The notes under the pieces were generated by a model. It saw only the letters and a list, made by a program, of their open reading frames with translations, searched no databases and was not told where the DNA came from. The position numbers and the translations under genes are program-made. This document shows, one piece after another, positions 2,804 through 30,018 of a DNA stretch of 34,580 nucleotides. Position 1 is the first letter of the stretch. Each line of letters begins with the position of its first letter. Source of the stretch: Comamonadaceae bacterium (GTDB taxonomy: Bacteria; Pseudomonadota; Gammaproteobacteria; Burkholderiales; Burkholderiaceae_C); NCBI GenBank assembly GCA_947380945.1, contig CANCTD010000003.1, positions 1-34,580 of the forward strand, read 5' to 3'.

Positions 2804-5742
2804 GCGGCTTCCCCTTGTTGTGCGGCGGTCTGCGGCTGCGGTGCGCAGGCCTGTGTCAGCGCGGCAACCACCTGCTCCATGCGCATAAAGCGCGAACCTT
2901 TGACCAAGATGCTGCCCACTTGCGGCAGCTGCTGCACTGCAGCGGCGCAGAGCGCGGGCATGTTGTCGATGTGCTGCGACTGCGGCGCGGCAGCATGGGT
3001 GTGGCGGCTCAGGTCTCCGCTGAGCAACACGGTTTCAATGCCTTTGGCAGCGGCGTACGCGCCGGCCTCGCGGTGCAGCGCAGGGCCCTGGTCGCCGACC
3101 TCGCCCATATCACCCAGCACCAGCAAGCGCGGGGCGGGCAGCTCGGCCAGCACGTCGATGGCCGCGCGCACCGAATCGGGATTGGCGTTGTAGCTGTCGT
3201 CGACCAGGGTGATGCTGCGCCCCGCGTGTTGCAGGGCTAGCGCACGCGAGCGGCCCTGGACCGGGACAAAGCTGGACAAGCCCCTGACCACGTTCTCTGC
3301 GGACACGCCGGCTGCCAGCGCGCAGGCCGCCGCAGCCAGCGCGTTCAGCACGTTGTGGCGTCCGGCGATATGCAAGTCAAAGGCCAGGGTTTCGGTGTGG
3401 CCCGCCAGCTGCGCCACGGCTTCAAGCTGCCAGCAACCCGAACCCCACCGCGCGGATTGCAGGTAGACGCCTTCGCCAGCCGGTTTCGCTTGCGCGCTGA
3501 AGGTCAGCACCCGGCGCGTACCGGCCAGTTTGCGCCACAGTGGCGCATACGCGTCATCGGCCGGGAATACGGCAACACCAGAGGCGGGCAGGGCGGTAAT
3601 GACTGCGCCGTTTTCTGCGGCCACCGCGTCCACCGTGTGCATGAATTCCAGGTGCTCGCGCTGGGCGTTGTTAACCAGTGCCACCGTGGGCTGCGCCACC
3701 GCGCTGAGCTGGGCGATTTCACCGGGGTGGTTCATGCCGAGTTCGACCACGGCGATGCGGTGTTCGCGGCGCAGGCGCAAAACCGTCAGCGGTACCCCGA
3801 TGTGGTTGTTCAAATTGCCCTGGGTCGCCAGCGCCGCACCCTGTGGCGCATGGGCGTGCAGGATGGACGCGATCATTTGGGTGACCGTGGTTTTGCCATT
3901 GCTGCCGGTTACGCCGATCAGGGGCAGATGCCATTGCGCGCGCCAGGCCGCAGCCGATGCGCTCAGCGCCTGCTGGGTGTCGGGTACTTCGATACGCGGC
4001 AGCGCGGCACCCGGCGCGCCAGCAGGCTGGGGCTCGCACACCACCGCCACCGCGCCACGGTCCAGCGCCTGCGGCAGAAACTGGTTGGCGTCGAACTTCT
4101 CGCCGCGCAGCGCCAGGAATACATCGCCCGCCTGGGTGCTGCGGCTGTCGGTATGTATCCGCAGCCAGGGGGTGCCCGGGTCGGCGCTGAGCTGGCTGTG
4201 GGGGATCAGTGCCGCCAGATGGCCCAGGGTCAGGCGGCTGTTGGCACGCGCAGCGAGCGCGCTACGCGCCTGGACGCGGTCATCAAAGGGCAGGCGCTGA
4301 CCGGCGATTTCCTGGGTGGCTTCGTGGCCTTTGCCGGCCAGCAGCAAGAGGTCGCGGTCATGCATGCTTTGCACCGCGCCGGCAATTGCGGCCGCCCGAT
4401 CCGGCTGCACCTGCCAGTGGTCTGAGGGCTCAAGCGTGGCAACCATCTGGGCCAGGATCTGCTGCGGGTCTTCGCTGCGCGGGTTGTCGCTGGTGAAGAC
4501 CACATGGTCCGCGCCCTGTGCGGCCACTGCGCCCATGCGCGGGCGTTTGCCGGCATCGCGGTCGCCGCCGCAACCGACCACACACCACAGCTTCCCGCCG
4601 CGCGCCGTCGCCACGGGGCGCAAGGCCGCCAAGGCCTGGTCCAGGCCGTCCGGCGTATGGGCGTAGTCAACCAGAACCAGCGGGTTGCTGTCCGGTGCCG
4701 CCACCGCCTGCATGCGCCCGGGTGGGGCTTGCAGACCGCTGCAGGCGGTGGCCGCTTGCGCCAGCGGGATGCCCTGGCTGCGCAAGGCGGCAATCACACC
4801 CAGCAGGTTGGCGACGTTGTAGTTGCCCGCGACCGGGCTGTGTACCGTGTGCTGTTCGCCGGCCTCACGCACCGCAAACACCATGCCGGTGCCGCTGCTG
4901 CGGATGTCGCAGGCTTGCAGGCGCGCGCGCTGGCTGCCCGAACAGGTCCACAGGTCCAGTCCTTTGTCTGACAGCTCGGCGGCCAAGCTGGCACCACGCT
5001 GGCCATCGATGTTGATCACAGCGCTGCGCAAACCAGGCCAGGCGAAGAGCGCCGCTTTGGCCGCCCAATAGGCGTCCATGCTGCCGTGGTAGTCCAGATG
5101 GTCCTGGCTGAAATTGGTGAAGATGGCGCAGTCGATAGGCAGGCCGTCCAGCCGGTGTTCCTGCAAGCCGATGGACGACGCCTCGATGGCGCAGCCGCGC
5201 GCGCCCTGCGTGGCAAAGCGCTGGAGCGCCGCATGCAGGGTGACCGGGTCGGGTGTGGTCAGGCCGGTGCTGTCCAGACCGCTTGCGTCGGACGGCGCGC
5301 CGCTGCCCAACAGGCCGCAGCCCAGGGTGCCGATAAAGCCTGCGCAGGCCGGTGTGGGCGCCAGCGCGGCCAGGGCCTGCGCCAGCCACCAGGCGCTGGA
5401 GGTTTTGCCGTTGGTGCCGGTTATTGCAAACACCGGAATGCGCGTCGTGCCGCCTTCAAAAAATGCCGCTACCAACGGGCCCAGCGCTTTTTGCAAGCCG
5501 TTGAAGCTGGCAACCGGTGCGCCCGCGAAATCCCAGGCATGCGCGCCTTGTGCTTCCACCAGACAGGCCGTCGCGCCGCGCTGCACGGCCTGCGCCACAT
5601 GGCGGCGCGCGTCGCTGGCCGCACCCGGCCAGGCCACAAAGCCGTCGCCGGGCCGTACCAGGCGGCTGTCGCTGACCAGCGTGCCGGTGACGCGGGTTTG
5701 CAACCAGGCCAGGGCTTCAGTGCGGTGTGCCAGATGCTGCAT
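2794..5742 (-). CDS. murE/murF: Bifunctional MurE-MurF fusion (meso-DAP-adding and D-Ala-D-Ala-adding ligase)
   Basis: One uninterrupted frame of about 982 codons holds two complete Mur ligases. Residues 1 to about 500 are MurE: ATP loop ITGTNGKTS (107-115), lysine 229 in YWAAK matching the carbamylated lysine, and DNPR (419-422), the motif linked to meso-diaminopimelate rather than lysine. Residues from about 504 to the end are Mur[17 protein letters not shown] near the start, ATP loop [10 protein letters not shown] (610-619) and [10 protein letters not shown] (848-857). The link [12 protein letters not shown] is short and has no stop or internal start signal that I can see. The track begins at a TTG at 5745. 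The ATG at 5742, overlapping the ftsI stop as TGATG, is the better start. The product would perform two successive steps of UDP-MurNAc-pentapeptide synthesis in one chain. Such fusions are known in some Burkholderiales. Confidence 0.95.
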
Positions 5743-27803: not shown

Positions 27804-27821
27804 GTCCCGCTGCGCGGGCTT
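27802..27821. terminator. Hairpin in the 16-base convergent gap between fadD and corA
   Basis: AAG-T-CCCGC, a TGC loop and GCGGGCTT make an eight-pair stem with one bulged T. It covers the whole gap and part of both stop codons. No T-tract follows on either strand, so it is a weak bidirectional terminator or a 3'-end barrier at best. Confidence 0.4.
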
Positions 27822-28809
27822 ACTTCAGCCAGCCGCGCTTGCCGAAATACCACATGGGCAGCGCTGCGCTGAAAACCATGATCGCCACGGTATACGGATA
27901 ACCCCAGTCCCCCAGCCACTGCAACTCGGGGAATTTCAGGTTCATGCCGTAAACGCTTGCCACCAGGGTTGGCGGCAGCAGCGCCACGCTGGCCACCGAG
28001 AAAATTTTGATGACCTTGTTCTGGTTGATGTTGATGAAACCGACGGTGGCATCCATCAAAAAGTTGATCTTGTCAAACAAAAATGCGGTGTGCGAATCCA
28101 GCGAATCGATGTCGCGCAGGATCTGGCGCGCGTCTTCAAATTGGTCGGAACTGAGGATCTTGGAGCGCATCATGAAGCTCACCGCGCGGCGTGTGTCCAT
28201 CACGTTGCGGCGTATGCGTCCGCTCAAATCCTCGTGGCGCGCGATCGCCGCCAGCGCTTCGCCGGCAATCTCATCGGTGACGTTGCCGGCCAGCACTTTT
28301 TTGCTGACTTTTTCCATTTCGTCGTAAATGCCTTCCAGCGTGTCGGCAGAGTACTCGGCGTCCACGTCGAAGAGTTTGAGCAGCACGTCTTTGGCGTCGG
28401 TGATCAGGCCCGGTGAGCGGCGCGCCCGCATGCGCAGCAAGCGAAACACCGGCACGTCTTCGTCATGGATCGAAAACAGAACACCTTTGCTGCTGAGGCT
28501 GTCGTTGACCAGATTCAGGATAAAAGCAGTGCGCACGGTGCGCGGTTCATCCTCGTCGGCGATCAAAAAATCGCTGCGGATGTGCAGCTCACCGTTTTCC
28601 TCTTGGTAAAAGCGCGCGGACTCTTCGATGTCCTCGTCCATCGCGTCTTCGGGAATGAGCAGGCCGAAGTACTGCTTGATCCAGCGCTTTTCTTCCGGTG
28701 TGGGGGACTCCAGGTCGACCCAGATGGGCTGGAAGCGCGCCAGTTCTTCCAGCGATTCAATTTCTTCCTGGAACAGCCGGCCGTTGGCCAGCGTGAATAT
28801 GTTGAGCAT
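27820..28809 (-). CDS. corA: CorA, Mg2+/Co2+ channel
   Basis: This pentameric inner-membrane channel imports Mg2+, with Co2+ and Ni2+ as side substrates. The 329-residue protein has the large acidic cytoplasmic domain (about 1-265) and two C-terminal membrane helices (about 268-287 and 304-322). The selectivity motif YGMNLKFPE (287-295) lies between the helices, and a basic end (FGKRGWLK) follows. It opens MLNIFTLANGRLFQEE. No Shine-Dalgarno sequence is visible before the ATG. Instead the upstream leader contains two interleaved inverted repeats, the nearer ending 13 bases before the start (see that entry). This suggests expression is set in the leader. Confidence 0.95.
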   Translation of the reverse strand: MLNIFTLANGRLFQEEIESLEELARFQPIWVDLESPTPEEKRWIKQYFGLLIPEDAMDEDIEESARFYQEENGELHIRSDFLIADEDEPRTVRTAFILNLVNDSLSSKGVLFSIHDEDVPVFRLLRMRARRSPGLITDAKDVLLKLFDVDAEYSADTLEGIYDEMEKVSKKVLAGNVTDEIAGEALAAIARHEDLSGRIRRNVMDTRRAVSFMMRSKILSSDQFEDARQILRDIDSLDSHTAFLFDKINFLMDATVGFININQNKVIKIFSVASVALLPPTLVASVYGMNLKFPELQWLGDWGYPYTVAIMVFSAALPMWYFGKRGWLK

Positions 28810-28822
28810 GGGCGAAGCATTC

Positions 28823-28915
28823 GCGGGCCAGAGTCCAATGATTCAACACGATTCATTGATGGAGGAAGTAGCTTTCGGGCGACTGGACTCTGGCCCGCAA
28901 TGGTGTGAAAGCTAC
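28823..28915 (-). promoter_or_regulatory. Structured corA 5' leader with two interleaved inverted repeats (candidate RNA switch)
   Basis: Repeat A is a perfect 15-bp inverted repeat. On the minus strand GCGGGCCAGAGTCCA (28898-28884) pairs with TGGACTCTGGCCCGC (28837-28823). Repeat B is a perfect 9-bp inverted repeat, GTAGCTTTC (28915-28907) with GAAAGCTAC (28876-28868). Along the RNA the order is B5', 8 bases, A5', 7 bases, B3', 30 bases, A3', 13 bases, corA ATG. The arms interleave, so the two stems form a pseudoknot or exclude each other. A small AGGAG/CTCCT hairpin (28948-28935) lies nearer the 5' end. I know no named RNA family for this arrangement. A Mg2+-responsive role is inferred only from the downstream gene. 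Confidence 0.6.
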
Positions 28916-28967
28916 CGCAGAGGGTAGGGGTTCAAGGAGAGCGCTCCTGGAAGTGGTGCAGCTTTCC

Positions 28968-28973
28968 ATTATG
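28968..28973 (-). promoter_or_regulatory. Candidate -10 box for corA
   Basis: CATAAT on the minus strand differs from TATAAT at one base. Initiation about seven bases downstream would give a leader of about 150 bases that contains both inverted repeats. No good -35 hexamer is seen at the usual distance. Confidence 0.3.
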
Positions 28974-29135
28974 GCACCTGCGCGGGGCCAGCCAGGCGGT
29001 AAAAAGGGCTTGCCATGAACTGCGGATCGGGGCACAGTGGGACTGGGGAACCGGCCCGTTCCGGCATCCCAGCGGCAAGGCCCGAGCGCCCCGGGCAAGC
29101 CGGGGAAATTCAACTGGAAGAACTGGAGAATGCGT

Positions 29136-29465
29136 ATGAACCTGACGATTAGCGGACACCATCTCGACGTAAGCCCTGCCCTGCGCAGCTATGTGATCCA
29201 GAAGCTGGACCGCGTGATACGCCATTTTGACCAGATGGTCGATGTCAAGGTTCTGCTGTCCATTGAGAAGCAGAAAGCCAAGGAAAGCCGCCAGCAGGTG
29301 GAGTGCAACATCCATGTCAAAGGCGGCGATTTGTTTGCCCAGTCGGCCCACGAGGACATGTACGCGGCCGTGGACGCCTTGGTCGACAAACTGGACCGGC
29401 AGGTGGTGCGCCATAAAGACAAGGTTCAGGACCACCAGCACGCCGCACCCAAGCGCTTGATGTAA
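29136..29465 (+). CDS. hpf: HPF, ribosome hibernation-promoting factor (short form)
   Basis: This protein binds the 30S decoding region and inactivates ribosomes in slow growth. The ATG at 29136 has GGAGA at ideal spacing; an in-frame ATG six bases earlier overlaps that spacing and is less likely. The 109-residue product begins MNLTISGHHLDVSPALRSYV. It has the RaiA/HPF fold parts KLDRVIRHFDQMVDVKV and CNIHVKGGDLFAQSAHEDMYAAVD, and a basic C-terminus. It lacks the dimerisation domain of long HPF. It is followed by a clear terminator and then ptsN, a neighbour typical of the rpoN region, though rpoN itself is not in the window. Confidence 0.93.
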   Translation: MNLTISGHHLDVSPALRSYVIQKLDRVIRHFDQMVDVKVLLSIEKQKAKESRQQVECNIHVKGGDLFAQSAHEDMYAAVDALVDKLDRQVVRHKDKVQDHQHAAPKRLM

Positions 29466-29494
29466 ACCTGCGCCGCGCGGCGTACTCCCTTCAC

Positions 29495-29519
29495 AAGCCG
29501 CCCCTTGCGGGCGGCTTTT
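29495..29519 (+). terminator. Intrinsic terminator after hpf
   Basis: AAGCCGCCC, loop CTTGC and GGGCGGCTT form a perfect 9-bp GC-rich stem followed at once by TTTTC (counting the last two stem Ts). It lies 30 bases after the hpf stop. It should separate hpf from ptsN at least in part. Confidence 0.85.
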
Positions 29520-29524
29520 CTATG

Positions 29525-29530
29525 CATAAT
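29525..29530 (+). promoter_or_regulatory. Candidate -10 box for ptsN
   Basis: CATAAT, part of TATGCATAAT, lies 11 bases before the ptsN ATG and directly after the hpf terminator. Initiation here would make a nearly leaderless mRNA, which would agree with the missing Shine-Dalgarno sequence. The -35 region overlaps the terminator and is poor. Confidence 0.3.
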
Positions 29531-29541
29531 CCGCGCACTTT

Positions 29542-30018
29542 ATGAACCGTCTCGCCGCCATACTCCCCCTCGCACAGGTTATGACCGGCACCGGCATCGC
29601 CAGCAAAAAGCGGGCATTTGAGGAGGTGGGCTTTTTGTTCGAAACCTTGCATGGCTTGAGCCGGGCCCTGGTGACCGACAGCCTGTTTTCCCGGGAGCGC
29701 CTGGGTTCGACCGGCTTGGGGAATGGCGTGGCCATACCGCACGGCCGTATCAAGGGCCTGAAGCTACCCATGTCGGCCGTGCTGCTGCTGGAGCAACCCA
29801 TAGGCTTTGACGCGCCGGACAACCAACCGGTGGATCTGCTGGTTTTCCTGCTGGTGCCCGAGGCGGCGACCCAAAAACACCTGGAGCTGCTGTCCGACAT
29901 TGCCGCCTTGCTCAGCGACGAGACCCGCCGCATGGCTTTGCGGCGCAGCGATTCGGCGCAGAGCCTGCATACGCAGATTTGTGACTGGCCCGGCCAGCCC
30001 GAAGCCGTCAGACCTTAG
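29542..30018 (+). CDS. ptsN: PtsN, PTS enzyme IIA-Ntr
   Basis: This is the phospho-acceptor of the nitrogen-related phosphotransferase chain (PtsP, NPr, PtsN). It regulates potassium and nitrogen metabolism rather than sugar uptake. The 158-residue protein has the active-site histidine H67 in GNGVAIPHGRIKG. The domain also shows KKRAFEEVGFLFE, ALVTDSLFSRERLGSTGLG and VDLLVFLLVPEAATQKHL. The ATG at 29542 has no ribosome site. hprK follows 33 bases later, an arrangement usual in betaproteobacteria. Confidence 0.94.
   Translation: MNRLAAILPLAQVMTGTGIASKKRAFEEVGFLFETLHGLSRALVTDSLFSRERLGSTGLGNGVAIPHGRIKGLKLPMSAVLLLEQPIGFDAPDNQPVDLLVFLLVPEAATQKHLELLSDIAALLSDETRRMALRRSDSAQSLHTQICDWPGQPEAVRP

Follow-up and report, generated by a model that had tools for sequence, protein, structure and literature searches.

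Our data suggest that the mRNA leader of the Mg2+ channel gene corA in this Comamonadaceae bacterium carries a corL-type switch that is coupled to a short upstream open reading frame (uORF), a reading that we hold with a probability of roughly 60%. It is directly supported by the layout of the leader, the coding conservation of the uORF, the covariation of the hairpin P2, the conserved complementarity of the helix P3, and the exclusive link to corA. By analogy with known leaders, Mg2+ would be the signal and the switch would have the polarity proposed below. We furthermore infer that it targets translation, either instead of Rho termination or in addition to it, and still works in this genome.

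Results

We analyzed a 34,580-nucleotide stretch of DNA (the window), in which corA, the regulated gene, occupies 27820..28809 of the minus strand and encodes 329 amino acids (Pfam CorA, PF01544; E value of 2.6e-45), with its ATG at 28809. Since an hpf-type ribosome hibernation factor gene and a PTS EIIA (ptsN-like) gene, at 29130-30018 of the plus strand, diverge from corA, the corA leader lies in a divergent intergenic region. Leaders of corA from the same family were gathered via DNA and via CorA protein, giving 110 distinct leaders, 87 of which contain the 29-base block nTGGAAACCTACCCYAGTCGGTAGCTTTC.

The family layout, as predicted from these leaders, comprises an extended -10 box, a Shine-Dalgarno (SD) sequence, a 7-codon uORF, two hairpins (P1 and P2), and an alternative helix (P3). 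P1 lies over the end of the uORF, P2 begins at the uORF stop, and P3 combines the P2 loop with the corA ribosome-binding region. In the window, a near-consensus extended -10 box, TGCCATAAT, was read from the sequence at 28968..28976 (minus strand), upstream of all other elements, and the transcript is expected to start near 28961. Among the relatives, NATAAT is found in 82 of 87 leaders and TGN-NATAAT in 73, at a median of 30 nt 5' of the uORF. An SD-like GGAG precedes the uORF at 28944..28947 (minus strand), as an SD-like sequence does in 70 of the 87 relatives, and an alternative pairing of this GGAG with CTCC before the start is possible. The minus-strand order, 5' to 3', is thus TGCCATAAT, GGAG, the uORF, GTAGCTTTC, a loop containing CATTGCGGGCCAGAGTCCA, and GAAAGCTAC, followed by a 30-nt linker, TGGACTCTGGCCCGC-g-AATG, 8 bases, and the corA ATG. 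No intrinsic terminator was recognized in the leader sequence, as a U-run is absent both after P2 and after P3.

The initial annotation had described two interleaved perfect inverted repeats between a -10 box and the corA ATG, and both their exactness and their placement hold, with a 15-bp repeat at 28823-28837/28884-28898 and a 9-bp repeat at 28868-28876/28907-28915. Its judgment that such repeats are improbable by chance applies to the 15-bp repeat, the sole perfect inverted repeat of at least 15 bp within 100 bp in the window (none in 30 block shuffles), but not to the 9-bp repeat taken alone: repeats of this kind number 33 in the window, against 15.3 expected. The 9-bp repeat gains its significance from its conservation in relatives. 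It corresponds to P2, and the 15-bp repeat corresponds to a long form of P3, the helix being extended by 4 bp (CATT/AATG) past one bulged base, to 28902 and 28818. The annotation was also right that corA here has no SD, where most relatives have GGGAG; absent from its description were the uORF and the third hairpin, P1. The only other perfect repeat of at least 12 bp within 100 bp in the window is a 13-bp inverted repeat at 4700-4760 (plus strand), around CCACCGCCTGCA/TGCAGGCGGTGG.

Between promoter and corA, the leaders contain a short uORF for which codon-level conservation, weak start codons, and an SD predict translation. In the window, this corL-like uORF, part of the block homologous among relatives, reads TTG AAC CCC TAC CCT CTG CGG TAG (M-N-P-Y-P-L-R-stop; 28912..28935, minus strand). 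The consensus of the 87 leaders is M-[E/D]-x-x-P-S-[R/W/C], with M-E-x-x-P-S-R/W-stop as the family form. The start codon is TTG in 45 leaders, ATG in 27, and GTG in 15, and never CTG. Codon 2 is acidic (GAA/GAC/GAG) in 85 leaders, codon 5 is Pro in 86, where each of the four CCN codons occurs, and codon 6 is Ser, encoded by AGT in 80 leaders and by TCT in 4. Codon 7 is mostly CGG/CGC/TGG/TGC, and TAG follows as codon 8 in 68 of the 87, the frame elsewhere remaining open to a stop after 11 to 20 codons. The freedom of the third base of codon 5, the two-base swap between Ser codons, and the exchange among three start codons argue for selection acting on the predicted peptide.

In the window, the ORF is intact, but the peptide, MNPYPLR, has diverged and no longer contains the Glu2 and Ser6 that are conserved in relatives. 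The two leaders in which codon 2 is not acidic, that of the window and L011 (MKNCPGR), both contain a REP pair with 58-bp spacing, which hints, post hoc and from two leaders, that the peptide may decay where P3 is very strong. A covariance model (R2) built on 44 relatives, with the window left out, matches the window at 28871-28949 of the minus strand (26.3 bits; E value of 4.4e-7), and this corA leader is the only match listed in its own genome.

P1 is formed over the uORF end by CTACC (28927-28923) and GGTAG (28916-28912), thus spanning 28912..28927 of the minus strand; in the 44 aligned relatives, 93% of its cells are paired, with one pair changed on both sides. An extended P1 was also considered as the main competitor and was rejected, as it showed little covariation. 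The 5' arm of P2, GTAGCTTTC (28907..28915, minus strand), overlaps the end of the uORF by GTAG, starting within its stop region, and the 3' arm, GAAAGCTAC (28868..28876, minus strand), is its exact repeat partner and is paired with it in the covariance model. In the same relatives, 97% of P2 cells are paired and 6 of its 12 pairs have changed on both sides, a result not reached in any of 500 shuffles. For P1 and P2 taken together, no shuffle matched the observed values, and sliding the partner destroyed the signal. The compensatory changes that the initial annotation had proposed to look for in relatives were thus found insofar as the stems are conserved, P2 covaries, and the P3 complementarity is kept. 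Separately, four leaders (L027, L221, L251, and L283) and similar window-like leaders contain a second copy of CTTTCGAA/CTTCGAAT 3' of P2, a potential partner of the P2 3' arm in a possible third competing helix.

The 5' strand of P3, CATT-GCGGGCCAGAGTCCA (28884..28902, minus strand), lies in the P2 loop, combines the exact repeat with its extension, and is REP-like in reverse orientation. The 3' strand, TGGACTCTGGCCCGC-g-AATG (28818..28837, minus strand), ends 8 nt before the corA ATG and is likewise REP-like (TTGGACTCTGGCCC). The 15-bp stem sequence itself is not conserved, and other sequences occupy the same role in relatives. In most of these, the corA SD is GGGAG and CTCCC lies within the P2 5' arm. 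The base after CTCCC and the base before GGGAG form a Watson-Crick pair in 43 of 80 leaders, against 22.6 in shuffled data (0/10000), and the next flanking pair does so in 42, against 27.4 (1/10000); one slid register is also mildly in excess (48/2000), so that some effect of relatedness remains in this covariation.

In all leader groups, furthermore, the P2 loop forms a stronger predicted duplex with the pre-ATG tail of the same leader than with tails swapped in from other leaders (0/5000 each), including in window-like leaders without REP sequence, with relatedness and base composition partly remaining in this comparison. Composition is removed when tails are dinucleotide shuffled, and here the group mean z scores were -2.75, -1.71, -1.21, and -1.41, compared with +0.18 for a control region and -7.1 for the window. 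The bases of P2 and P3 overlap or interleave, so that the two helices would compete, and the leader is predicted to adopt two mutually exclusive folds, backed by covariation or conserved complementarity, as the initial annotation had suspected. Sterically, the simultaneous formation of P2 and P3 as a pseudoknot is possible. For the window, the minimum free energy of the whole leader is -51.0 kcal/mol, compared with -31.3 kcal/mol when the P3 strand is masked. As Glu2 and Ser6 are lost and the P3 fold is predicted to be about 20 kcal/mol more stable, regulation may be weakened here, with the switch of this genome perhaps lost or biased toward the off state.

The origin of this long P3 provides the main rival to our interpretation, namely, that the 15-bp repeat is a RAYT-mobilized REP pair (REPIN) that landed by corA and has no role in its control, with only the uORF and P2 being functional. 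The arms match a palindromic REP, TTGGANTCTGNCCC, inverted pairs of which are found about 58 bp apart in genomes G110 and G206, as here. REP-like matches number 14 in the window's own genome, against 1 for a control pattern. This genome also encodes a RAYT-type transposase (Y1_Tnp) of 236 amino acids (L337; G000:C66, 1156-1866, minus strand), flanked on both sides by inverted REPs, GGGTCAGATCCCGA and TCGGAATCTGACCC, and the REP sequence of the corA leader likely derives from its family. Two relatives of the same genus, G126 (L031) and G218 (L054), have ordinary leaders.

In their match to the REP of the genome's own RAYT family and their inverted 58-bp spacing, the arms resemble REPINs (PMC3116915). 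The interior between the arms, however, is the leader sequence itself, with the P2 3' arm, and does not resemble REPIN interiors. On the possibility, raised by the initial annotation, that the unit is scattered in the genome, the answer is divided: the whole unit is single copy, with no repetition in its own, 78%-complete assembly, but the REP family that includes the 15-bp arm is dispersed. The window-like leaders L010, L011, L041, and L316, as well as L087, also carry REP-like sequence at one or both of two places, the loop and the pre-ATG strand. Pairing between the arms persists in L010 and L316 although one of the arms has diverged from the REP, and leaders without REP sequence pair at the same place. 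We regard a REP insertion without function as unlikely and read the captured REP sequence as probably serving as P3, or at least sitting in it.

A motif scan with one genome per species returned at least 119 stretches; all 116 that could be read precede corA, the remaining three being cut short by the end of the contig. Among the matches listed, nearly all record titles name Comamonadaceae genera or unclassified Burkholderiales or beta-proteobacteria, and the two that name other genera (Bordetella and Pantoea) may be mislabeled. In an order-wide draw, the covariance model scored high only in Comamonadaceae, with R2 reaching at most 25.5 bits elsewhere, and among the leading matches outside the family, a few of which were read as sequence, nothing corA-like was seen. 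Matches of an earlier model (R1) in other families were rejected as unrelated, mostly coding DNA. By motif, no corL-like uORF was found in the sampled other families of Burkholderiales, based on annotated starts of which a few may be misplaced, and the sampled gamma-proteobacteria yielded one (MDSHSRY). A blastn search of plasmids gave no match.

Discussion

In the scenario that we favor, a ribosome completing the 7-codon uORF would sit with the stop codon at the P2 5' arm and, because this arm starts inside the stop codon, would have to cover it and block P2. The P2-loop strand would then form P3 with the sequence immediately 5' of the corA ATG, lowering CorA synthesis. At low intracellular Mg2+, the M-[E/D]..P peptide would be expected to abort translation early, whereupon P2 would form, P3 would be excluded, and corA would be translated. 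The P3 of this genome would be an unusually strong (15+4 bp), REP-built version of this helix. Besides the loss of Glu2 and Ser6 and the very stable P3 in the window, two points speak against such a switch. A modeled ribosome on the uORF changed the pairing of the ribosome-binding site inconsistently, which neither confirms nor excludes the polarity, and the peptide has a single acidic residue, fewer than mgtL.

A switch of opposite polarity appears quite improbable. In that scenario, P1, extended by GAAA/UUUC, would block P2 when no ribosome is present, and uORF translation would open P1 and turn corA on. While the extended P1 is paired in 95.5% of cells, this pairing is mostly invariant coding sequence with only one pair changed on both sides, the extension is weak in the window, and the known corL works in the other direction (PMC11552253). 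A direct riboswitch, akin to the metal-sensing RNA considered in the initial annotation, would bind Mg2+ or another ion through the P2/P3 fold, perhaps in pseudoknot form, and the uORF would be dispensable. Such a riboswitch fits the presence of alternative folds in the leader of a Mg2+ channel gene and a possible pseudoknot geometry, but it is very improbable, given that there is no sign of ligand binding or of a conserved unpaired aptamer core, that conservation centers on a coding mini-ORF whose stop codon abuts P2, that loop and linker lengths vary freely, and that Rfam has no match.

With the corL-type switch as the preferred reading, the closest known system is probably the uORF-coupled Mg2+ control of corL and mgtL, because E. 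coli corL begins MDTPSR. In E. coli, corA expression varies inversely with the translation of corL, and the effect of Mg2+ is exerted via this leader, with Rho (PMC11552253). For mgtL, early acidic residues with Pro destabilize the ribosome, which EttA relieves (PMC11282234). The corL (ysgD) gene translates as MDTPSRYWLTILSSRINS, with its TTG start taken as Met, and the likeness of its beginning to the consensus METYPSR here is suggestive; the peptides are too short for a homology statistic or to prove descent. The corL-corA leaders of E. coli and Salmonella likewise have a tiny uORF, exclusive alternative folds, and weak start codons. However, the E. coli uORF has 18 codons rather than 7, and the architectures look different in an informal comparison. 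Furthermore, corL-corA is Rho dependent and Mg2+ responsive (PMC11552253), whereas P3 is predicted here to act on the ribosome-binding region.

The mgtL-mgtA leader (Rfam Mg_sensor) similarly combines an early acidic residue and Pro in the leader peptide of a Mg2+ transporter, but mgtL carries EPDP, compared with one acidic residue and one Pro here, and Rfam does not match our leader. The M-box (ykoK) is also the leader of a Mg2+ transporter gene; the leader described here has no visible aptamer core and contains a uORF. Searches of Rfam, M-box and Mg_sensor included, returned 0 matches at gathering and 0 at E values up to 1-2, consistent with the initial annotation, which had not recognized an M-box or other known Mg2+ leader. 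The open-access literature searched contained no account of a corL from beta-proteobacteria. Rather than an M-box or a demonstrated metal aptamer, the leader is thus apparently an undescribed, beta-proteobacterial form of a known control principle.

A 7-codon uORF is conserved at the amino acid level before corA throughout Comamonadaceae, and E. coli corL has a similar motif. We tentatively extend this to a broader claim, on which the odds are somewhat unfavorable: that a family-wide Mg2+-control leader absent from Rfam uses a 7-codon uORF, whose peptide motif (M-[D/E]-x-x-P-S-R) it has in common with enterobacterial corL, to gate whether the corA ribosome-binding region is sequestered, and that some lineages have rebuilt its stem from captured REP. 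If true, this would allow a direct test of whether a very short nascent peptide suffices to report Mg2+, and of which residues matter, and the stem made of REP sequence would cleanly exemplify how a mobile repeat can be put to use as a regulatory helix.

The single gamma-proteobacterial uORF of this kind lies upstream of corA in L342 and reads TTG GAC AGT CAT AGT CGA TAC CGA ATA TCG CTT TAG (MDSHSRYRISL), with an AGAAGGA SD-like site. Since this relative, which is Pasteurellaceae-like (a label that is a guess), has no Pro in its peptide, Pro is not universal in corL-like peptides. Three leaders from the same family as the window, L007, L014, and L015, differ from the other corA leaders and contain the mini-ORFs MDSHPR-stop, MDQSHPR-stop, and MDSTAPR-stop, respectively. 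Translated by eye, these resemble the Pasteurellaceae-like MDSHSRY and may represent a second leader subtype.
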